Made by a program: the position numbers and the translations under genes. Of a stretch of DNA of 64,000 bases, positions 14,229 through 51,514 are shown one piece after another. The stretch covers positions 53,500,443 through 53,564,442 of the forward strand of contig CP136068.1 of assembly GCA_032622095.1 (NCBI GenBank), given 5' to 3'. Position 1 is the stretch's first letter. The number at the start of each line of letters is the position of its first letter. The notes under the pieces were generated by a model, which was not told the origin of the DNA, did not search any database, and saw only the letters and a list, made by a program, of their open reading frames with translations. Origin of the DNA: Siphonodentalium dalli (lineage: Eukaryota > Mollusca > Scaphopoda > Gadilida > Siphonodentaliidae).

Positions 14229-14543
14229 AAACCATTCCCAGATATGGCAAGATGAAGTATGTGCAGTTATCAGTTACCATTCCCAGATATGGCAAGATGA
14301 AGTCTGTGCAGTTATCAGTTACCATTCCCAGATATGGCAAGATGAAGTCTGTGCAGTTATCAGTTACCATTCCCAGATATGGCAAGATGAAGTCTGTGCA
14401 GTTATCAGTTACCATTCCCAGATATGGCAAGATGAAGTCTGTGCAGTTATCAGTTACCATTCCCAGATATGGCAAGATGAAGTCTGTGCAGTTATCAGTT
14501 ACCATTCCCAGATATGGCAAGATGAAGTCTGTGCAGTTATCAG
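14229..14543. repeat. 45-bp minisatellite, 7 nearly identical copies
   Basis: Unit ACCATTCCCAGATATGGCAA + GATGAAGTCTGTGCAGTTATC + AGTT. Six of seven copies look identical; the first has TATGTG. The homogeneity implies recent expansion or gene conversion. Confidence 0.95.
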
Positions 14544-30000: not shown

Positions 30001-33000
30001 ACCTCTAAGGAATCATCATCTCCATCCCTGTGTTCTGTCCTGCTGATAACTTTACCGCAACCAGGTGTAAACGGGTCGACAATCACTTGCTCTGTGCCTT
30101 TAATCTCACACCGGCAGAAAGGGCAGCCCTGGCCATCAGAGTCCTATGAAAAAACATTACTTCTCATATATCATAATAGATATTAGAATTAATCTTATAC
30201 CAATAGAAATGGCAGCCATGGCCATCAGTCCTACGAAAAAACCATGTCTTCTCATGCATCATAATACATATCAGAATTAATCTTATACTGATAGAAATGG
30301 CACCACCGGCCACAAGAGTCCTATGAAAAAACCATGTCTTCTCATATATCATAAGACATATCAGAATTAATCTTATATGGATAGAAATGGAAGACCTGGC
30401 CAACAGAGTACTGTAAAAAGCCATGACTTCTCATACATCGTAATACATATCAGAATTAATCGTATACCGATAGAAATGGTAGCCATGGCCATCAGTCCTA
30501 TGAAAAAAACCATGACTTCTCATACATCATGATACATATCCGAATTAATCTTATACGGATGGAAATGGAAGGCCTGGCCATCAGAGTCCTGTAAAAAAAA
30601 AACATGACTTCTCATACATCATAATACATATCAGAATCCATCTTATGAAAAAACCATGACTTCTCATACATAATAATACATATCAGAATTAATCTTATGA
30701 AAAAACCATGACTTCTCATACATCAGAATACATATCAGAATTAATCTTATATGGATGGAAATGGAAGGCCTGGCCATCAAGAGTCCTGTAAAAAACTATG
30801 ACTTCTCATACATCGTAATGCATATCAGAATTAAAGTGTAACTGACACGAATTAATAAATCTAAACAATATACAATGTAAATGATGCATCTTTCATCCCT
30901 CAATGACAATACAATCATGACCAGTCATGACTGCGGCCAAATCGACTAACCCGAGACCGATAACTGTAAGGCACTATGTTTTTGTTTTGATTTTGCACGA
31001 AACATGTGGCCTTATTGTGTGACATCATAGGCAGAGAACCGGCGTGTTATTTACATTAGTTTATGACGCAATTCTCTAAATATAATGGTATTCAGGCCTT
31101 CAAATTTTCGCAATCTTTCTAATTTGTGATGTGTTTTAAGTTATTCACTGTCAGACAATGAACAAATTTGTTTATGTCGTGCGTAGACTAAGGAATTTGG
31201 AAATTCACGCAAATTTGTCACCATGGAAAATCTCGCGCTCTTTAAATTCGTTGAATAGTCAGCTGCCGATTAGTTTTATTAATATTTTAATAGATGACAG
31301 ATATGCATAGAATAAATCAAATTCTGGTGGTCTGATTGACACTTTCACTTTGAGAAATCTTCCTTGCTGAATAATAGCTATATCTCTTCTCGTCACATCT
31401 TCACAAATAATGTCATGATTCTGGGTGAAAAATAAAAACAATAACGATTCACCGGCTGGGAATGGCGAATCTTGAATGAAAATTGCTTCTCTTACAAGAG
31501 TGGGGAATCCGATTGCTCGGAATCGTAGTACTGCTATAATTTTACACATAACCTGCATGGTTACCGATAATAAATACACCAAACATTTATTTATACGGAC
31601 AATAGGCCTACATGAACACTTTGAAGAAAACCGATATTTCTCATCAACTATCACAATTTTTGTTAATCTAATATAGTTAAAAAGCCATCAGAAAAGCAGG
31701 GAATATGACTACTAATTTGTTATATGACCTCAAATATGGCAATTCATCATGTGAGTTCTGTTTCACCGGCAAATTTGGCTAAGTCCATACACTGGGACAC
31801 ATTTTGTTTGAGAATATTCTTGTCTTCTTAATCATAGAGGAATAAAGTTAACATTTTTTTGTGCATAATCTAGTGAAAAAAAATATACTATTTTCATAAG
31901 AAATTTCAACACATACTTTAATAAGGAAATATTTCTCTTGAAGTTGATTATAAACTATATTTATTCATTTTGTCCTTTGAAATTTAGAAAATCTTTGTAG
32001 ATAACATCTATTAACCTGAGGACCATTGTGGAAATAAGTCTGCCCATTCATGGGTCAGACTTTTAAATGTTATCCTCGATGCGATGGATGAGTCTTATTA
32101 CATCTGAAAGACCACTTCTTTAAATATCAATATATTTTATTAAACAAAATCTAATTAATGAAACTAAAATTAACCATTAATATTAATGTCTGACACTGTT
32201 TAAATAGATATTTTCTTTTCTGTTTTGATAACTGCTGTATACAATCTAAACTGTAACATCTTATGGTCCATTCAAACTGTAGGACCTTTTGTAATATGTT
32301 TTTACATCGCACCAAAGAAATCTATCTATCTATCTACCTATACAACAATGAAAAAGCCTTAAGTTTTCTCTACTTTTTAAACTACTTGACAATCAAATAT
32401 GGAAATGAGACAGGCAATCTTCTTATGTCACTCTAGAATGTTTATAAATAACTCGCCAGATAACCACGCCCAAAATAGTATATACTTCAGTGTCAGTGAC
32501 AGCCGATGTGCATTCGGAACAAACGCAAAACAATATAGATCCTGTGTCAGAAATGAACTACATCTATGTCGATCGGTCTTATTTTTCCCCAATGCGCAAA
32601 AATATAACTACAAAAAATCACGAGTGTTCATAAGATAAAATATGTTCCACTGTTAAAAAGACAAACGTGAAACCATTTTGTTGGTTATCGGTACCTTTGG
32701 CGGAGTGATACAAATTACAAGGCCAATACACATGGGTGCGTTGTTGAGTGAAGTTTATTGCAACACGAGTTGCAAAAATATCATGTATTCATTGTATTGC
32801 ATCGCCAGTTTTGCAGAAATAGAACTTCGTGAATCGACTGTACATCTAAGTCAATATCGGGAGGTATTTTCAGATACAACTTCATAGAGGAAAAGTGTTT
32901 TAAGTGTATGTTTTGGAAGGATTATTTTCATTTCGACACGTCGTGTTGGCTATTGTATCGCCAGTGTTTCGTGTGACCTCATAATATTTTATATACAGAA

Positions 33001-36000
33001 TTGTTTGTTTCATGCTCGGTTTATCTGGATATATTTACATACTAAGTGTGATCATCACTAAATCCAGCATTCCGATTGGTCTGCGCCCATGTGGCTAGTT
33101 GCAATTATTTCTCGGTGAACGCGCAACAGCTCATAACTGCAGCCTCATAATTACATTGACACGTCATCAGTTTCGGAAAGAAGAACGCGTAATGTTTTGG
33201 GCGCATTTGGACTCACGCAACATTGACTTAATACATCATCGGGTTTCAAAATAAAGAGAAATTGTTCCTGTTAACTTTTGCCAAGGGTGCTATGGGATAT
33301 TTTGGGCTTGTTTTGTCACGACACACTTTTCGCTTTAAATACATTTACAAAAGTGGCTTTTTCGCTAATTGTATATAAATATAAGGATTAACTGTCATGT
33401 GGACTGTTTTTATGGAGATGTAACCGTGAGGTAAGTGGTCATAACTTGTATGTAAAACCTTTGGGTTTTACACAAGTTATGACCACTTACCTCACGGTTA
33501 CATCTCCATAAAACAGTCCACATGACAGTTAATCCTTATATAGATTTTGTGGCAAAGAATTACAATACATTATGAAACTTCATGGAATTTTCGGATGGTG
33601 ATAGAGTTGATGGTGATACTACAAGTTGATAAATATGTAGTTAAAAATAAACATAAATATTTACTGCGTAAACGTCGTCAACTTGAACCAGTTAATATGC
33701 TGGTGATGTGAGTACAACACTTTTCGATTTTGTATTCAAATTTGCACATAACTTATCTTAAGTCAGTTGTCTACGATGAACAGTGTCCCCACCCATAACG
33801 TATATACAATATTATAGTTAGACTAATTTGGTAGAGTTATACAGAAATTATAAAAAAATGAAACAATTTTAATAATAATAGGGCTGGATTAGATACATGT
33901 ATATATACCAGTCACATTATTAACCCAACATATCCAGGCAGCAAAGGCTAAATATCTTGCTTGGTATATATATATATATGAATAAGTGGATGTGGGCACA
34001 CATTTAGCCCATGTTTGACCACGTACCCCCTCATTTATTTTGTGTATGTAAATTGTTTCTTTTTTTTGCACATTCGCTCACAATATTATGGAATCACGTT
34101 TTATTTGTAATTGTCATTATTTTGTACTTTAATTCAAATAATCAGTGTTCAGCCCACATGCCTACTGTTTCAGTCAGATTATTAACGCGATTAAAACACC
34201 AATGTATATTGCTATGAGTAGTACGAGTACGAGTTATCAACCCGGGGAGGTGGGGGTCACCAGTCGATCAGAAAACCCCTTCGAACTATAGTTCTCGAAA
34301 TAACCAGCTAATTTAGCTAAATGTTTATGGCATAATGGACTTGGCAGCTAGTTTAAAATATTTTCGTTCTGTGAACAGAAACCTTCTCCACTGTCGGACA
34401 AGAAGATTCTTCTCTTGCCCACAATTTTAGGCAACGCATGTCGCTAGCATATCACAGATAACAATAAAAACAACAAATTTGCAAAATGAAAACTATGAAA
34501 CAAGCTGTGGGCCAAGCACTCGGCCAATGTGTTTACATCCGCTTTCTCTGCCTATGATCTCGTGTGTAATGTGACCGCCACCATGAGACTTTCTAAAGTA
34601 TTTCGAAAATGAAAAAAACAAATGTATTTCTCACTAATTAGGCAGTTTCGTGTCGGATTTTTGACTGATTATGATAGAATAGGTAATAGTGGTTTAAATA
34701 AACGTATTTTTTATCTTTATCTTTAATCTTATGAAAAAACCATGACTTCTCATACATCATAATACATATCAGAATTAATCCTGTCCCAATAAAATGGCAG
34801 CCATGGCCATCAGTCCTATGAAAAAACCATGACTTCTCATGCATCATAATACATATCAGAATTAATCTTATACCGATAGAAATTGCACCCCGGCCATCAG
34901 TCCTATGAAAAAACCATGACTTCTCATGCATCATAATACATATCAGAATTAATCTTATACCGATAGAAATTTCACCCCGGCCATCAGTCCTATGAAAAAA
35001 CCATGACTTCTCGTACATCATAATACATATCAGAATTAATCTTAAACCGATAGAAATGACAGGCCTGGCCATCAAAGTCCTGTGAATAACTATTGACATC
35101 TTTAAAAGAACTACAACATAAAAAGTTAACAAACACATCACAAAGATTATCTTCTGAGGAACAAACCTTTATGAGAGAAAACAGAAAACAAAAGTAAGAT
35201 AAACACAGGTATAGGTAGTAAGATAAACACAGGTATAGGTAGTAAGATAAACACAGGTATAGGTAATAAGATAAACACAGGTATAGGTAGTAAGATAAAC
35301 ACAGGTATAGGTAGTAAGATAAACTAATGTGACGACACTTCATCTGGGCTTTTACCCTTAGATAGGAAGTTTGGTCGAAATCCGTCCGACAGTTTTCCCG
35401 GCCATAGCTAACAAACAAACAGAAGTCCCAAAATATATACATACTAGCAGGTGGACCCGACTTCGTCCGGGCTGTTTCCCCTCTGCTTTTCGGCGAATTG
35501 CGCGATTTGACCTTGAATTGTCCAATTTGAAGGTCAAGGTCAGGTGGGGTCACGATTTAACCCGTCCAAAACACTGCCCAGACAAAAGTACCCGACAAAA
35601 GTACCCGTCGAAATCCATCCGGTTTTATCCGATTTGACCTCGAATTGATCATTTTGAAGGTCAAGGTCAGGTCGGGGTCAGGATTTGACCCGTCCAAAAT
35701 ACTCAGTGGACAAAAGTAACCCTACGTATCAAAATTTCGTCAAAATCCCATAAAAATTCGCAATTTGACCTTGAATTGACCGATTTCAAGGTCAAGGTCA
35801 CGTCCCACGGGCAAAAGAATAGGCTTACGACACTCCCCATACGAAAGTATCCTTAGACACTAATTTTCATCGAAATCCCGTGATACTCGGGCGTTCGACT
35901 TTGAAATGACCCGATTTCAAGGTCAAGGTCACGTTGCATGGGCAAATTAATAGGCCCATGCCACTCCCCGGCCGAAAGTACCCCCACATACCAAGTTTCA

Positions 36001-39000
36001 TCGAAATCGGTTTGGCCGTTTTCGAGTCCATCGCGAACAGACAGACAGACACACACACATCCTTGTTTGTATTACATACGTTGTGAGGACTCCCGTTATT
36101 TCGTAAATATATCCAAACTCGGAGGGTACCTTTAACGAAATAACGGCCATCTTTGTAATGCATGCGTAGTCATTTCCGCCTAGTGCGGACGAACAAATTT
36201 CAAAAATTTCAAAAAATACAAATTTCCGTCGCCTTTAGGGAATTTTTTTTTAACATTGTGAGGACATTGTTTTACTATATGAATGTCTTCACAGCGTTGG
36301 GTTTACACATGCACACACACACACACACACAGATTTCCCAAAATATATAATAGATATATGGAATTCACTAACAGCCGAGTGTACCTCCAGATAAGCAGAA
36401 AATCCAGATTACAATATTTTATCATTATAAACTCATCACTAATAATTAATTAGTAAATAACTGAATTAATGTTTAGACAAATTTCACATTGTCAGCCAGG
36501 AATACTGGTTGTAATAGAGGCTTGCATCGACAAAGTACCAAGAGTCATGTTTAGGCCGAGTTTCCTTTCATTTTAGCAGTCAGAGACAGCGGTAGTTATA
36601 CAGATTATGATAGAGGCTTACAAAGATAAATAGCCAAGCCATCATCTCCTTGCACACTCTACCAATGGATGTTTAACCTGTTTGTGTACTCATATAAAAG
36701 CATGAATATAATAAAGGTATAAACTTCGAAAGAACACTAACTCAAAATATAAAATCCGATTAGAAATATTTCCTTCGTTTTCCATGGTCTCTTGCATCAG
36801 AATTTCTTGTACAGTGAAACCTCTCCAAACCAGGCCCTCTATAAAACAAATTCTTATCCACACCGAACGAAATGTCCGGTACCGAATTAATCCAAGTGCA
36901 TTGACTATAAAAATTAACTCTGACTCAGTAATCCGAAATATCTCCATTCTGAATATGAATGAAATTTTGAGTCCCGTTGTTCGTCCCATTTTCAATTTTG
37001 TCCACTGGAGTCTGAACATGTTTTATCAGTGTTGCCATACCTTTGTCTAATGTACTAGCCTAATAAATCCACCTAAACACCCGGTCCACCCATAGCGGTC
37101 CAGTACTGTACCGATTCACAAACTTTAATACAGAGAAATGTGCCTAGCTTAAGTACTGGCCCTGCTGGGGTTGACCGGTACGGAACTTCAAAGCTCCAAT
37201 CGCCAGCCAATACACAGTGTCGCAAATGTCTGGTCAGATCACATTAGCAGCTCGTGAGATACATTCTTTGGTGTCGGCGACATCAAATGACGGTGAGGAC
37301 TGCTTCTGTCTTATAATGACTTGAGTGTTGGCTGATGACAGATGGTTCCAAATAAATCATTTGTAATTCTGTAACTCTACATGACGGTCGTTTGTTTAAA
37401 ATACAGCATAACCAGTTGTTAAAGTTGAAAATAATATGTGACGGAGATTCAATGTATGTCGTGAATCATGATATACTAGCCTATAGTTGGCAATATATAA
37501 CTCCAAGTTACTACATCCAATACAGATACGGCCAATCTATCTAGAATATGTCAGTTGGCAATGTTAAGAACAAAATGTTATGAGTACTGAAAGACTTGGA
37601 GCATTTGCACTCAAACCAATCATAGCATGTGGGGTACAGTGGAGACGTGAACTATACAGACTCTAGAGTGAGTCACATTCACAAGTTTTAAGCACATTTA
37701 TTCATTCTCTAACTTCTACAGAATGATGGAGATAAGAAAATACACTACACATTTCCACAATGTGCATACAGTGTATTATATATGGTTTAATACAAGCTTG
37801 CCCGGCAGTAACTTGACACTTTCTGTAACACAACACATATACCAAAGTAAGATTTAAAACATTTCCCTCCATTTAAGGTATTTTATAATGATTGGAAATT
37901 TGAATTTGGACCAGTCCAAGCTAGAATACCAGACCACTGCGAGCTGGACTGGTCCAAACCAGACTGCCTCTTCTCTGGACCAGACCAACACTGGCTTTCC
38001 GGTCCGCATCCTTAAATAACAGGTGCCGGCTTAGATAACGCGACATTTGTTTCGCACCTTTAGTGAATAATTGGGTGTTCAGTTAGAATACATCATTGGC
38101 AGTTTGCTTTTACATCAGTTGATACACCATACTATGGTTGGCGGAGTCTCATAAGAACTTTTAACATAAACACTAGTTCTCTATAAAGTATAAATCCCCA
38201 GTGGAACATTTGTCACTAAAACATTTTCATCCAGAATGATTATTATTATCTAGTTTATTGAAGTTGCATCGTTTCATGCTTCTGATGGCAAGATTTTCAA
38301 CAAATCAAACAGAAAGGTCAGTCAGAAGAGTGTTTGGTTTGGAGAGGTTTTACTGCACTGAATTTATAAAACATATATGAACGAACTAGACAAGTGAAGT
38401 AACTGTGTATATAAGTAAAAAGAGTATGAAAGCAGAAAAATGGCATTGTTCTTCATCTGTCAATGTTCGTAGTGACTGATATCCCAGGCTGTTGGAGACG
38501 AGTTATAAGGAAACCCATGCTGAGCCCTGATGAAACCCATGCTAAGAATAATAATCATCTTACATGTACCTGCCACTGAGTGAGGCATGGGGTGCACAGC
38601 AGGTGGCCGCATGGCTCGATTCGTATATCCTTATCGTTCTCAGCACATATTTTACATAGCTGAAACGTTGAGCCCATCTCACAGTACAGTTCGTACTGTT
38701 CCTGTGTCACTGAAATGTGGTCTTCCTGTGTATCAGCAGCCAGGTAACTCAGGTCGGGATTTATACTCCGGCCATCAGGGTACAAGAAGCTGTAAAATAG
38801 AGAATCAATGTTTCCTTGTTCTGATGAAATTCAAAATGAGGAGCATGAATTGTAGATTTTTATTAAAAAATTTGATTCGAGGGTAGTGATGTGCGGTTTT
38901 GAAATTTCATTTCGGTTTTGGTTTTGGTATGGCTTTTGTAGAAAAACCAGGTTCTGGTGTTGATTGTGTTTTGACTCAATACACCAATTACTATATGCAT

Positions 39001-51000: not shown

Positions 51001-51237
51001 TTCACTTGCACAATAAATTCCTTTGTCAATTCCACAACTATTTCATAATATTACAAATGTTTCTAAAACTATGATGTATGCCATACTCACCTAGTAAATA
51101 CATCAAACTCGAACACGGAGATGTAATCGTTGCATGTTAAATCTATCGTCGACTTGAGCGCCATTGCCTCCAATGGTGAACTGATCTGATGCGCATCGTT
51201 TAACGTTCCTCGGAAAACTTTCCACGAGACGATGGTC
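20865..51237 (-). CDS. Cbl: Cbl-family E3 ubiquitin ligase, partial gene (11 exons, 3' half)
   Basis: Cbl proteins bind phosphotyrosine on activated receptor tyrosine kinases at the inner plasma membrane and, through a RING finger, recruit an E2 to ubiquitinate them. The exons 51237-51091, 48694-48563, 40739-40602, 38789-38570, 30143-30003, 29220-29164, 27803-27673, 26799-26675, 24006-23869, 23205-23112 and 21087-20865 all have GT/AG borders and join in phase to 514 residues plus TGA. In order they give: EF-hand end (1-49), SH2-like domain (50-140) with FRLSCT Arg at 97, linker with tyrosines at 171 and 174, C3HC4 RING (184-222), Pro-rich tail, and UBA (about 472-510). I recognised it from near-identity to known Cbl blocks such as [19 protein letters not shown]. 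The four-helix bundle and start codon are absent and presumably lie above 64000. The UBA makes it the long Cbl type. The frame is unbroken. Family assignment is secure; paralogue identity is not. Confidence 0.96.
21120..21440. repeat. Dispersed repeat, related to 28025-28450
   Basis: AAAGACATATTGTGGACTTA, GGTAAGTTAGTA, GTAAATATTTAC, GAGTGTTTAACATCAC here correspond to AAAGACATATTATGGACTTG, GATAAGTTAGTACTC, GTAAATATTTACATC, GAGTGTTTCAAATCAC at 28025-28450. Both lie in Cbl introns. Confidence 0.6.
22406..23104. repeat. Dispersed repeat R1, copy 1 (unoccupied)
   Basis: It opens with a palindrome at 22415-22553 (TAACTCTTGTTTCGATTAAG ... CTTAATCGAAACAAGAGTTA) and shares about 700 bp with 24158-25478. 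The homology ends at AAATTATT near 23103, about eight bases from Cbl exon 23112-23205, next to its GTAAGT donor. It carries the uninterrupted site GGAATTATGATGCAG near 22935. Confidence 0.75.
23112..23205 (-). CDS. Cbl: Cbl exon: [10 protein letters not shown] motif
   Basis: A 94-bp exon with acceptor TGACTGCAG and strong donor GTAAGT, phase 1 in and phase 2 out. It encodes [20 protein letters not shown] and [16 protein letters not shown] fits the PxxxPR pattern through which Cbl proteins bind CIN85/CD2AP-type SH3 domains, and PAEYDHPPP resembles a Cbl tyrosine motif; both are inferences from short motifs. A dispersed repeat begins within about eight bases of the donor (see 22406-23104). Confidence 0.9.
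23869..24006 (-). CDS. Cbl: Cbl exon: tyrosine-containing tail segment
   Basis: A 138-bp exon, acceptor ACATTCAG and donor GTAAGA, phase 1 at both ends. It encodes [20 protein letters not shown] and [20 protein letters not shown]. Several tyrosines lie in acidic or Pro-flanked contexts (YDKYES, FYDNP), suitable as phosphorylation-dependent SH2 docking sites; this function is inferred. Its symmetric phase makes it skippable without a frameshift. Confidence 0.9.
24158..25478. repeat. Dispersed repeat R1, copy 2 (interrupted)
   Basis: Same palindrome (24164-24314) and downstream sequence as copy 1 (CACTCAAAACTTGTGCTTAT, TGATGCAGCACCGAAATTTC, CAGCCAATTGTTTCACAGTA), but interrupted at 24671-25254 by a different element, plus about 55 extra bases near 25330. 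Confidence 0.75.
24671..25254. mobile_element. GGAC-tract element inserted in R1 copy 2
   Basis: Starts ACAAGAGGTGTGCACTCGAG, contains two tandem copies of a block with TTCATATTTGTTAAAGTTAT and AAGTCGGACAGAATTTTCTA, then a GGACGGACGGACAAACGGA tract, and ends in a hairpin TATACCCCC...GTGGGTATA. Comparison with R1 copy 1 gives its limits to within two bases and places insertion at an AA (TT) dinucleotide. Confidence 0.75.
25891..26016. repeat. Direct duplication, about 57 bp, two copies
   Basis: AGCCAGAGGTTAAATGCTTG, TAGCTAGCTGTTGTATCCCC at 25894 recurs as AGCCAGAGGTGAAATGCTTG, TAGCTAACTGTTGTATCCCC at 25963. Confidence 0.7.
26675..26799 (-). CDS. Cbl: Cbl exon: proline/serine-rich tail
   Basis: A 125-bp exon with donor GTAAAA, phase 2 in and phase 1 out. 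It encodes [20 protein letters not shown] and [25 protein letters not shown] and PIPPARIK are possible SH3-ligand cores. The acceptor is a tandem NAGNAG type (TAGCAG), so splicing three bases downstream would keep the frame. Assignment rests on phase continuity with both neighbours and on composition typical of the Cbl tail. Confidence 0.9.
27673..27803 (-). CDS. Cbl: Cbl exon: proline-rich SH3-binding region
   Basis: A 131-bp exon with acceptor TATTGCAG and donor GTAACT, phase 0 in and phase 2 out. It encodes [20 protein letters not shown] followed by [20 protein letters not shown] and KLP. The [16 protein letters not shown] block is a recognisable Cbl tail motif and matches the class of proline-rich sites bound by SH3 domains of adaptors such as Grb2. 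The rest is low-complexity Ser/Pro sequence expected to be unstructured. Confidence 0.95.
28025..28450. repeat. Dispersed repeat related to 21120-21440
   Basis: Bounded by AAGGCATGTGTAGTCGAAAA at 28023 and AAGGCATGTGCAGTCGAAAA at 28426, which are direct copies flanking the repeat. The interior aligns with the 21.1-kb copy. Confidence 0.55.
29164..29220 (-). CDS. Cbl: Cbl small tail exon (19 codons)
   Basis: A 57-bp exon, phase 0 at both ends, between TTCTTTGTAG and GTATGA. It encodes [20 protein letters not shown] assign it by position, open frame and splice sites rather than by strong homology; the post-RING tail of Cbl proteins is poorly conserved. Because it is symmetric, skipping it would not shift the frame, so it is a candidate cassette exon. 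Confidence 0.85.
30003..30143 (-). CDS. Cbl: Cbl exon: last two RING cysteines and post-RING segment
   Basis: This 141-bp exon is phase 0 at both ends, acceptor TTTTTTCATAG and donor GTGAGA. It encodes [20 protein letters not shown], then [14 protein letters not shown] and an acidic stretch. CPFC supplies the seventh and eighth zinc ligands of the C3HC4 [17 protein letters not shown] is a Cbl signature. Without this exon the RING cannot fold, although skipping it would keep the frame. Directly upstream on the minus strand lies an array of decayed copies of this exon's first 45 bp with its acceptor (see 30144-30833). Confidence 0.97.
30144..30833 (-). repeat. Exon-derived minisatellite, array 1 (about 8 units)
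   Basis: Units of about 88 bp. Read on the minus strand each has intron sequence with TTTTTTCATAG, then GACTGATGGCCATGGCTGCC and TTTCTATCGGTATAAGATTA. That aligns with the true acceptor and first 45 bases of Cbl exon 30143-30003 (GACTCTGATGGCCAGGGCTG, CCCTTTCTGCCGGTGTGAGA). So every unit is a decayed copy of the intron-exon junction. Most lack two bases after GACT and have lost the Cys codons. Two units are shortened. Confidence 0.9.
30834..33378. other. Intronic stretch without recognised genes
   Basis: Contains a 131-codon minus-strand frame (31259-31654) resembling no family I know, and a short TCTATCTATCTACCTA microsatellite near 32320. A region near 33060-33220 is relatively GC-rich with an inverted CCAAT (GATTGGTC); promoter activity is not established. 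Confidence 0.3.
33379..33541. repeat. Near-perfect palindrome, 163 bp
   Basis: TATAAGGATTAACTGTCATG, GGACTGTTTTTATGGAGATG and GTGAGGTAAGTGGTCATAAC on the left are mirrored exactly on the right, around a GTAAAACC...GGTTTTAC core. Arms are about 75 bp with almost no mismatches, suggesting a very young fold-back insertion. Confidence 0.85.
34728..35090 (-). repeat. Exon-derived minisatellite, array 2 (about 4 units)
   Basis: Same unit as array 1, 3.9 kb further into the same Cbl intron. On the minus strand it reads TTTTTTCATAGGACTGATGG and so on. The frames decode to decayed forms of the RING segment (TDGHGCHF for SDGQGCPF). Confidence 0.88.
35194..35330. repeat. 24-bp minisatellite, about 6 copies
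   Basis: Unit GTAAGATAAACACAGGTATA + GGTA repeated. Confidence 0.9.
35440..36062. mobile_element. Dispersed repeat with GACAGACAGACACACAC tail
   Basis: Starts AGCAGGTGGACCCGACTTCG and holds four degenerate units with TTGACCTTGAATTGACCGAT and TTCAAGGTCAAGGTCACGT. It ends TTTCATCGAAATCGGTTTGG + CCGTTTTCGAG and a (CAGA)n(CA)n tail. Such 3' ends resemble non-LTR retrotransposon tails, but no reverse transcriptase is present and the class is uncertain. Confidence 0.5.
36308..36332. repeat. (CA)n microsatellite
   Basis: ACATGCACACACACACACAC run. Confidence 0.9.
36812..38355. mobile_element. Possible DNA transposon remnant with 20-bp TIRs
   Basis: CAGTGAAACCTCTCCAAACC (36812-36831) is the inverse of GGTTTGGAGAGGTTTTACTG (38336-38355), 19 of 20 matching. 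CAGT-type ends are typical of Tc1/mariner/pogo elements. The interior has no transposase frame. A left TA precedes the element; the right does not show one. Confidence 0.5.
38570..38789 (-). CDS. Cbl: Cbl exon: end of SH2, linker helix and first six RING ligands
   Basis: This 220-bp exon begins after TTTTACAG with the last base of a Phe codon and ends in phase 0 at GTACAT. It encodes [20 protein letters not shown], the linker [14 protein letters not shown] and the RING start [19 protein letters not shown], then [11 protein letters not shown]. The two linker tyrosines match human Tyr368 and Tyr371, whose phosphorylation releases autoinhibition. RING ligands C1-C6 are present (CxxC, CGH, CxxC), as is the Trp of LTQWQ that contacts the E2. 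The last two Cys come from the next exon, 8.4 kb away. Confidence 0.98.
39737..40500. mobile_element. TTAACCCTTTCTATAC element, copy 1, with nested repeat
   Basis: Starts TTTAACCCTTTCTATACTAA and TGGATTCCCC, shared with 41000-41253. Inside lies (AAT)n at about 40057-40080 followed by GGTGCTTATATAGCGCTTAT, a common type of invertebrate dispersed repeat. Confidence 0.5.
40602..40739 (-). CDS. Cbl: Cbl exon: SH2-like domain, phosphotyrosine pocket
   Basis: This 138-bp exon starts after CCTTACAG and ends at GTGAGT. It encodes [18 protein letters not shown], then [20 protein letters not shown] and LDGQREG. The Arg of FRLSCT is the phosphotyrosine-binding Arg of the Cbl SH2 domain (Arg294 in human CBL), and the Gly of LGQWAI corresponds to the residue whose mutation abolishes binding (Gly306). 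Both are kept. Cys in KSLCQ and Gln in DGQREG replace residues that are Phe in vertebrate CBL. It is embedded in dispersed repeats and was easily missed because the reading frame is short. Confidence 0.95.
41000..41253. mobile_element. TTAA-type MITE, copy 2
   Basis: CCTTTCTATACTAAATGGA at the left pairs with GTTTAGTATAGAAAGGGTTAA at the right. TTAA end and C/T-rich terminus again suggest piggyBac-type mobilisation. Confidence 0.6.
41420..41935 (+). repeat. GGAC-family dispersed repeat fragment
   Basis: Degenerate units with AAAAGCTCGGACAAAATTA, GGAATAACTCCAC and AAGTCGGACAGACATCATAA + TCGCAGGTGCACAGGTT repeated at about 145-bp spacing. The same family recurs at 44700-44965. Confidence 0.6.
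42050..42580 (+). repeat. 'GTTATGGCCCTGGC' dispersed element with GGAC tail
   Basis: Units of about 150 bp containing ATTTGAACAAATCTGAATG, GTCACCTAGGGAACATCCAC and ACCAAATATGAACCCATT. Ends with GGACGGATGGACGGACAGAC, then TATAGCTCCGCCGGAGCACA, a short hairpin. Confidence 0.65.
42590..43098 (+). repeat. Related dispersed element with GGATGGATGG tail
   Basis: Diverged units of the same type, then GGACGGATAGAGACA and GATGGATGGATGGGAG, ending CAATCCAATATACCCCCC...AGGGTATAAT, a loose terminal hairpin like that at 25220-25254. Confidence 0.55.
43143..43583. mobile_element. hAT-like MITE copy 3
   Basis: Starts CAAGCCTGAACATAGTGTCT and ends near AGACACACTAAATTCAGG. Same internal palindromes as 14947-15392. 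Flanks do not give a clean duplication. Confidence 0.7.
43699..43722. repeat. (TC)n microsatellite
   Basis: CTCTCTCTCTCTCTCTCTGTC run. Confidence 0.85.
43905..44705 (+). repeat. 'GTTATGGCCCTGGC' dispersed element, second copy
   Basis: About five degenerate units as at 42050-42580, then GACGGATGGACGGACGATGG, GACTATAGCTCCACCGGAGA and CTTCGTCTCAGGTGAGCTAA. Confidence 0.65.
44706..44965 (+). repeat. GGAC-family element ending in a TATACCCCCC hairpin
   Basis: Follows the preceding repeat directly. Ends GGACGGACGGACGACTGACG + GACGGACAAGCTGACTCC and a hairpin TATACCCCCC-CTAAC-GGGGGGTATA. Confidence 0.7.
44995..45050. repeat. (ATCGA)n microsatellite
   Basis: Imperfect tandem GAATCGAATCGAT and TCGAATCGAATATCGAATCG. 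Confidence 0.8.
45180..46631. mobile_element. Fold-back element, Penelope/terminon-like, 15-bp target duplication
   Basis: Two inverted arms of about 570 bp (45180 to about 45755 and about 45911-46475) surround a spacer of about 155 bp; a 156-bp unpaired tail (46476-46631) follows. The whole is flanked by TTCAATTGATAATTG at 45165-45179 and 46632-46646. Each arm has TATAAAAG (46333-46340; reversed at 45314-45321) followed about 40 bp later by a hammerhead-like block (46378-46410; reversed at 45245-45277). Inverted terminal repeats, long variable target duplications and hammerhead ribozymes are known in Penelope-like elements. No reverse transcriptase is present, so this would be non-autonomous. 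Confidence 0.6.
45245..45277 (-). ncRNA. Hammerhead-ribozyme-like core, left arm
   Basis: On the minus strand: GGTC-CTGATGA-A-GTTAA-ACA-TTAAC-GAAA-GCGC. CTGATGA and GAAA are the two conserved hammerhead core strings, and GTTAA/TTAAC forms a 5-bp stem II with a 3-nt loop. One extra A precedes stem II, and I could not define a cleavage site, so activity is doubtful. Confidence 0.4.
47289..47527. mobile_element. Palindromic MITE with GGATCCACCAGG arms
   Basis: CCCTGTCACTGAATCACGGC and ATTGGATCCACCAGGTC at the left pair with GACCTGGTGGATCCAAT and GTTAGTGACAGGG at the right; inner CCGTAGTTTTA / ACCACGGAACC also partly pair. Confidence 0.6.
47583..47648. repeat. Short direct duplication
   Basis: CATTTCAGCGCTGAGGCAAC + TTAAACA occurs at 47579 and again at 47620. 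Confidence 0.75.
47740..48460. repeat. AT-rich 21-bp minisatellite
   Basis: Degenerate units of TTTGTTTATGATACATTACGA; from about 48290 to 48445 it becomes a homogeneous run of TTTGTTTATTATACATTACC + A. Open frames of LLYITIC type are by-products. Confidence 0.9.
48563..48694 (-). CDS. Cbl: Cbl exon: SH2-like domain, N-terminal part
   Basis: This 132-bp exon starts after TTTCAG and ends at GTGTGT; phase 2 in, phase 2 out. It encodes [20 protein letters not shown] followed by [19 protein letters not shown] and SKPG. This is the beginning of the divergent SH2 domain that, with the four-helix bundle and EF-hand, binds phosphotyrosine motifs in receptor and non-receptor tyrosine kinases. The donor GTGTGTATT is weaker than the others but the frame and homology leave no doubt. 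The upstream intron carries the 53-bp minisatellite; the downstream one the 21-bp AT-rich array and the fold-back element. Confidence 0.96.
49137..50660. repeat. 53-bp minisatellite, about 28 copies, in a Cbl intron
   Basis: Unit GTGCTCAGTTATCAAAACAG + TGATGATTAGGTCTGATTAA + TACCAAGTCACCC. Variants (TTAATACC/TTTATACC, GTGATG/GTGACG/GTGATC, CACCC/CAGCC) recur in patterned order. The last two units shrink to about 25 bp. Lies between exons 51091 and 48694. Confidence 0.95.
51091..51237 (-). CDS. Cbl: Cbl exon: EF-hand to SH2 junction of the TKB domain
   Basis: This 147-bp exon begins with the third base of a codon and ends with two bases of an Arg codon. It follows TTTTACAG and ends at GTGAGT. 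It encodes [20 protein letters not shown], then a block containing [19 protein letters not shown] and FEFDVFTR. That matches the end of the EF-hand and the start of the SH2-like part of the Cbl tyrosine-kinase-binding domain; the [17 protein letters not shown] block is almost invariant in Cbl proteins. It is the most 5' exon I can find. The partner exon upstream must end with two bases of a Lys-type codon and was not located in the remaining 12.7 kb. Confidence 0.96.
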
Positions 51238-51275: not shown

Positions 51276-51514
51276 ACTATTGTATAAGACATATTATAAT
51301 GGCTAATTTATAAAACACCACTCAATGACAACATGACTATTGTATAAGACATATTATAATGGCTAATTTATAAAACACCACTCAATGACAACATGACTAT
51401 TGTATAAGACATATTATAATGGCTAATTTATAAAACACCACTCAATGACAACATGACTATTGTATAAGACATATTATAATGGCTAATTTATAAAACACCG
51501 CTCAATGACAACAT
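51276..51514. repeat. 60-bp minisatellite, 4 copies
   Basis: ACTATTGTATAAGACATATT + ATAATGGCTAATTTATAAAA + CACCACTCAATGACAACATG repeated four times; three copies are identical and one has a single change. Begins about 40 bp upstream of the Cbl exon acceptor at 51238. Confidence 0.95.

Follow-up and report, generated by a model that had tools for sequence, protein, structure and literature searches.

A 'mirage'-type minisatellite probably born at an intron-exon junction within the RING of a scaphopod Cbl gene

The window, by which we mean the whole 64,000-nucleotide stretch that was analyzed (contig CP136068.1, positions 53,500,443 to 53,564,442 of the forward strand, assembly GCA_032622095.1), comes from the scaphopod Siphonodentalium dalli. 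A Cbl gene lies on its minus strand, where tblastn detects most of the gene's conserved portion. Residues 1-147 of the Cbl query found no match in the window. Four upstream exon matches and a RING exon together provide the tyrosine-kinase-binding region and a RING with Cbl sequence, the combination by which the family is recognized. When joined, the two exons that encode the RING are matched in the PDB by chains of CBL-B, the best (E 2e-54), and of CBL, and they also match RING models of Pfam. Between them lies an intron of 8426 bases (38569-30144), which splits the RING directly after ...TQWQ and harbors the minisatellite described here. The exons are as follows.

51251-51090, minus strand: upstream Cbl exon match (tblastn)
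48696-48565, minus strand: upstream Cbl exon match (tblastn)
40747-40589, minus strand: upstream Cbl exon match (tblastn)
38570-38788, minus strand: upstream Cbl exon with the first half of the RING, ending in phase 0 at ...TQWQ (tblastn)
30003-30143, minus strand: real second RING exon of Cbl, 141 bp, ending ...SLE, with the donor GAG|GTGAGA (tblastn, PDB match)

The position of this intron bears on which came first, the exon or the repeat. The alignment with a mammalian Cbl protein runs through the RING intron boundary. We take the start of human CBL exon 9 to lie two codons past W408. W408 of human CBL has been placed in exon 8, and a mutated acceptor is reported at the end of intron 8 (PMC3797696). 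Since mammalian Cbl aligns through the boundary and the human exon 8, W408, and the intron 8 acceptor are arranged in this way, this intron position is probably ancient, and the repeat would derive from the exon rather than the reverse.

Immediately upstream of the second RING exon, 13 copies of its junction lie head to tail on the minus strand, u1 being the farthest from the exon and u13 the nearest. The real junction closes the row, its unit abutting u13 without a gap, and the row is interrupted once by an inserted element, as listed here from the exon outward.

30106-30194, minus strand: REAL, the authentic junction and last unit of the row, running from the intron end into the first bases of the exon
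30195-30282, minus strand: u13, decoy, two bases lost after the acceptor, TGA at codon 2
30283-30372, minus strand: u12, decoy copy
30373-30461, minus strand: u11, decoy, acceptor score below that of the real one
30462-30550, minus strand: u10, decoy, two-base loss
30551-30642, minus strand: u9, decoy, T10ACAG acceptor
30643-30694, minus strand: u8s, short, without exon part
30695-30746, minus strand: u7s, short, without exon part
30747-30834, minus strand: u6, decoy, its TTAA (30831-30834) being the right target-site copy of the inserted element
30835-34722, no strand assigned: TTAA-flanked dispersed element splitting the array (genome matches of its ends, termini, empty site)
34723-34726, no strand assigned: left TTAA target-site copy, the adjoining left element end partly deleted
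34729-34780, minus strand: u5s, short, without exon part
34781-34867, minus strand: u4, decoy, two-base loss
34868-34954, minus strand: u3, decoy, two-base loss
34955-35041, minus strand: u2, decoy, two-base loss
35042-35089, minus strand: u1, outermost and partial, with a clear exon part and a very divergent intron part

A full unit joins about 45 bases of the intron end to about 44 bases of the exon start, GATTAA being counted in the exon part. Nine units are full (87-92 bp), and the exon part is present in 10 of the 13 copies (u1-u4, u6, and u9-u13). The remaining three, u5s, u7s, and u8s, measure 52 bp, end in CATAA, and have no exon part. An earlier note on this DNA had proposed about 12 units of roughly 88 bp, placed in this intron and on this strand behind an exon ending at 38570. 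The strand, the intron, and the upstream exon are as claimed there (tblastn). The unit starts hold GATTAATTC in all copies except u1 and u9 (in u6 once its flanks are joined), so that a TTAA target is present in them. The units span the authentic boundary of the same gene, and the array adjoins that authentic boundary, which is the arrangement of the minisatellites named 'mirages'.

The copies on either side of the inserted element had been taken for two arrays. The intervening 3.9 kb is, however, a dispersed element whose empty site is clean, which rules out two independent arrays: there was one, later split. The ends of the element have at least 45 and at least 46 genome matches, its own copy and fragments counted in (40 candidates were scored out of 113 for one end and out of 98 for the other), and TTAA stands at both ends in five of five examined relatives (four distinct sites, L011 and L015 sharing flanks). 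The right target-site copy of the window's element is at 30834-30831, within u6. Its empty site retains one TTAA and reads CATAAGATTAATTCTGATATGC, a normal unit junction; likewise, the joined flanks give ...TTTTTTCATAAGATTAA|TTCTGATATGC.... Since joining the flanks rebuilds a unit junction, the array predates the insertion. The relatives end in AGTGGAGCTGTCA and TGTCAGTTACACT, which are imperfectly inverted, and the window copy carries a partial deletion of its left end. Judged by frame lengths only, the longest open frame spans 142 codons in the window copy and 97-139 codons in three of the five relatives, and the element is perhaps non-autonomous. It may be a TTAA-specific DNA transposon, piggyBac- or Kolobok-like. 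Inside the window's copy, a 513-base stretch (33034-33546) is absent from all five examined relatives and contains a near-perfect palindrome with arms at 33379-33449 and 33472-33541; it is probably a nested insertion.

That the units copy the junction is supported by alignment, by genome search, and by comparison with the other junctions of the gene. A background of 1000 dinucleotide shuffles, pooled from all 13 copies, served to judge the alignment scores; local alignments of the exon part cover 22-34 columns. No shuffle equals the exon-part score in any of the 10 exon-bearing copies, so that the identity between unit and exon put forward in the earlier note holds on formal alignment, and none equals the intron-part score in 12 of the 13 copies. 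A 181-base query of two units, searched against the 2.2-Gb genome, gave 10 matches, every one within 30100-35047 of the window. Furthermore, among seven Cbl junctions tested, that of the RING intron alone has further copies in the window; the six others have no second copy there at E 1e-3, and none of them seeded an array. The alignment and the restriction of the matches to this locus support the proposed origin from an exon junction.

All nine full copies share seven differences from the real junction, at exon positions +23, +30, +35, and +37 and at intron positions -15, -36, and -41. Read by eye, +23 changes Pro to His, +35 Cys to Tyr, and +37 Glu to Lys, +30 alone being silent, and the last zinc cysteine (CPFC) is aligned with Tyr or His in 9 of the 10 copies. 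Divergence among the full copies ranges from 0.03 (u2/u3) to 0.23, while u1, the most divergent copy, stands at 0.22-0.32 from all the others.

Taken together, these comparisons make it very probable that the array is a mirage-type minisatellite that arose when the 3' junction of the mid-RING Cbl intron was duplicated in tandem. In the first duplication, exon base ~44 (GAGATTAA) would have become fused to intron sequence through a TTAA present in both; a duplication at short homology fits, since the exon end ...GAGATTAA and the unit junction GATTAATTC have TTAA in common. One founder copy, freed from selection, would then have decayed, and it would have done so before amplification, because the nine full copies share the seven differences. 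Unequal exchange or slippage would have amplified the decayed founder, and three copies would have lost their exon part, probably between ATA repeats; the TTAA-flanked element later split the array. Selection would preserve the last copy only, as it alone continues into the remainder of the exon. The splicing machinery probably ignores the decoys for the most part, because a complete exon and a strong donor (at 30002) follow the last acceptor alone; use of the decoys at a low level would yield premature stops. The duplication model is backed by precedents, namely, the amphioxus mirages and a duplication of a 3' intron-exon boundary in potato, both discussed below.

The splice-site potential of the copies was gauged with Shapiro-Senapathy percentages, a rough aid not trained on this species, in a scan of 432 AGs in 38700-29990 and of 560 GT sites. 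The acceptor AG is retained in all 10 exon-bearing copies, the decoy acceptors lying, from u1 to u13, at 35079, 34989, 34902, 34815, 30785, 30588, 30497, 30410, 30320, and 30230, and the real one at 30143. With this matrix, u9 scores 12.11 and ranks first of the 432 AGs; u13 scores 7.92, u10 7.80, u2, u3, u4, and u12 7.19 each, u6 6.43, u1 5.12, and u11 4.40. The real acceptor, at 6.33, ranks 24th. The 23 AGs above it comprise 8 unit acceptors, 2 further AGs within u6 and u11, and 13 that lie beyond the array; because of these 13, the matrix must be regarded as unspecific. Four other Cbl acceptors, their exon starts placed by eye, score 13.26, 11.42, 9.21, and 1.19, so that the real acceptor lies below three of them. 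When spliced from 38570 and read toward the real donor, all 10 decoys reach a stop after 1-29 codons. The loss of two bases after the acceptor brings TGA to codon 2; the earlier note had seen this loss in most copies, and we find it in 5 of the 10.

Several observations weigh against the duplication account and must be set beside it. The intron part of u1 is equalled by 971 of 1000 shuffles, and the left breakpoint is therefore uncertain, as that part cannot be aligned above shuffles. In an anchored test, the last 24 intron bases of u1 agree with the array at 15 of 24 positions, a level that 2 of the 1541 other 24-mers with a terminal AG in the gene region also attain, and u1 is probably, though not firmly, the eroded original edge of the array. 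The distance of the real junction from the copies (0.15-0.26) scarcely exceeds that of u6, so that the edge effect expected from repeat turnover shows clearly at just one end. In the same search engine, the 141-base real exon returned only itself and missed the units; since it did so, and since the genome search skips very common words, diverged copies may exist elsewhere. The order of events is read from one sequence. Finally, 8 of the 10 decoys outscore the real acceptor, which makes their silence less obvious.

The last point leads to a functional reading, in which the decoys would be poison acceptors: by diverting part of the Cbl transcripts into forms with a stop or with half a RING, they would set the dose of Cbl. 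The early stops in every decoy, at codon 2 in half of them, the high scores of most decoys with u9 at the top, and the low standing of the real acceptor among those of the gene all suit such a role, and the length of an intronic variable number tandem repeat (VNTR) in ABCA7 correlates with exon skipping (PMC5954066). However, all the facts in its favor follow equally from descent without function, and the scores come from a matrix that also gives 13 AGs beyond the array a higher value than the real site. Nor does conservation single out the acceptors: among the nine full copies, the mean majority is 0.889 in the acceptor core, 0.949 in the intron part before it, and 0.852 in the exon part. As the acceptor core is kept no better than the preceding intron part, there is no sign of selection for a decoy function, and selection on the decoy acceptors, considered as a candidate, is unsupported by the column conservation. 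In amphioxus, moreover, Adh3 data and globin reverse transcription PCR (RT-PCR) suggested that regular splicing is undisturbed (PMC3087553). The decoy acceptors of the earlier note thus stand as a potential of the sequence, with their AGs retained and, in 8 of 10, with scores above that of the real site on a rough matrix, and we consider a poison function unlikely. More unlikely still is its extension, in which the copy number of self-amplified poison 3' splice sites would tune the amount of full-RING Cbl while half-RING products would oppose the normal protein.

The earlier note had also suggested micro-exons, units spliced in between their own acceptor and a GTATAAG donor said to occur in many copies. 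The sequence AG|GAC...TCG|GTATAAG of u2 and u3 could delimit one, but exact CGGTATAAG is found in these 2 of the 10 copies only, where the donor TCG|GTATAA scores 0.27 and ranks 189-190 of the 560 GT sites, and u2 and u3 would in any case run into a stop at codon 2. Among the GTs of all units, the highest score is 4.29, versus 10.16 for the donor of the real second RING exon and 6.62 for another real donor. The real exon itself contains, at 30111, a cryptic donor CCG|GTGTGA that scores 6.90, 8th of the 560 GT sites. In the copies this site is weakened or lost, +35 and +37 being changed in all nine full copies and +37 corresponding to donor position +5. A micro-exon role is accordingly weak, and we give it very little chance. 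Alternatively, the unit might be a dispersed repeat whose likeness to the exon is accidental or that donated sequence to the exon. The region is rich in repeats, tandem arrays making up ~22% of the window, and the genome search was not exhaustive, the exon query having missed the units. Against this stand the 10 unit matches, all at this locus, the exon-part score that shuffles never attain, and an exon sequence common to mammals. As the source of the array, a dispersed repeat is opposed by the locus-only matches, even though the exon query found only itself, and we attach next to no probability to it.

The junction duplication that we favor has known counterparts. The 'mirage' minisatellites of amphioxus were described in the globin genes BflGb6 and BflGb9 and in Adh3 (PMC3087553). 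That of BflGb6, with 6 and 3 units (81-100% identical) in two haplotypes, has the geometry of the Cbl array, an intron 3' end followed by the 5' part of the next exon. The Cbl array differs in its full units of 87-92 bp, compared to 150-160 in the amphioxus mirages, in its 10 exon-bearing and 3 short copies with identities from 68% (u1/u4) to 97%, and in being split by a TTAA-flanked element in a 2.2-Gb genome. In potato, a tandem duplication across intron 1/exon 2 of an RNA-dependent RNA polymerase gene (PMC4974935) likewise crosses the 3' intron-exon boundary, copying the acceptor, the pyrimidine tract, and the exon start. There, RNA-Seq indicates that the single extra copy is spliced as a new intron, whereas in Cbl there are many copies and the donor-like site has decayed. 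The ABCA7 VNTR (PMC5954066) is also an intronic minisatellite whose unit holds a splice signal, and its length tracks altered splicing; its 25-bp unit contains a donor, however, while the Cbl unit contains an acceptor and coding sequence. The 6-16/IFI6 minisatellite, as its title states, is a repeat of an interferon-induced gene that supplies multiple splice donor sites and hence concerns the donor side, unlike the Cbl array. A literature search that left out most subscription papers found no acceptor-side case beyond amphioxus except the potato duplication. The arrangement is, then, rarely described but already known, as mirages; to call an array seeded by a coding exon boundary unusual, as the earlier note did, is fair for a kind already on record (PMC3087553).

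The amphioxus paper proposed mirages as a route to new introns and, in 2010, held them to be possibly a general phenomenon in cephalochordates (PMC3087553). Since the Cbl array is such an arrangement outside amphioxus, the process may extend beyond cephalochordates. With about ten similar acceptors in a row, the array is also a natural test of the way in which the spliceosome settles on one of them. Acceptor choice at this position matters, as suggested by the corresponding human acceptor, that of CBL intron 8, which was mutated in a myeloid sample (PMC3797696).

Tandem repeats are frequent in the rest of the window. Over positions 1-64000, ~33 merged tandem arrays were found, several of them in Cbl introns, with a coverage of ~22% when Tandem Repeats Finder (TRF) intervals are summed. 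At 51276-51514, a 60-bp unit is repeated 4 times (99% alike), the array ending ~38 bases before another Cbl acceptor (51237); the Cbl junction at 51237 has no second copy in the window. At 14231-14543, a 45-bp unit is repeated 7 times (99% alike), with two plus-strand frames and one minus-strand frame open, and it may encode a 15-residue repeat. A search with a molluscan haemocyanin model gave no hit, either here or in any of 14 controls. Elsewhere in the assembly, a COX1 copy lies on a large contig (L016, G000:C1:108127492-108128832) and is open over 527 codons in the invertebrate mitochondrial code.

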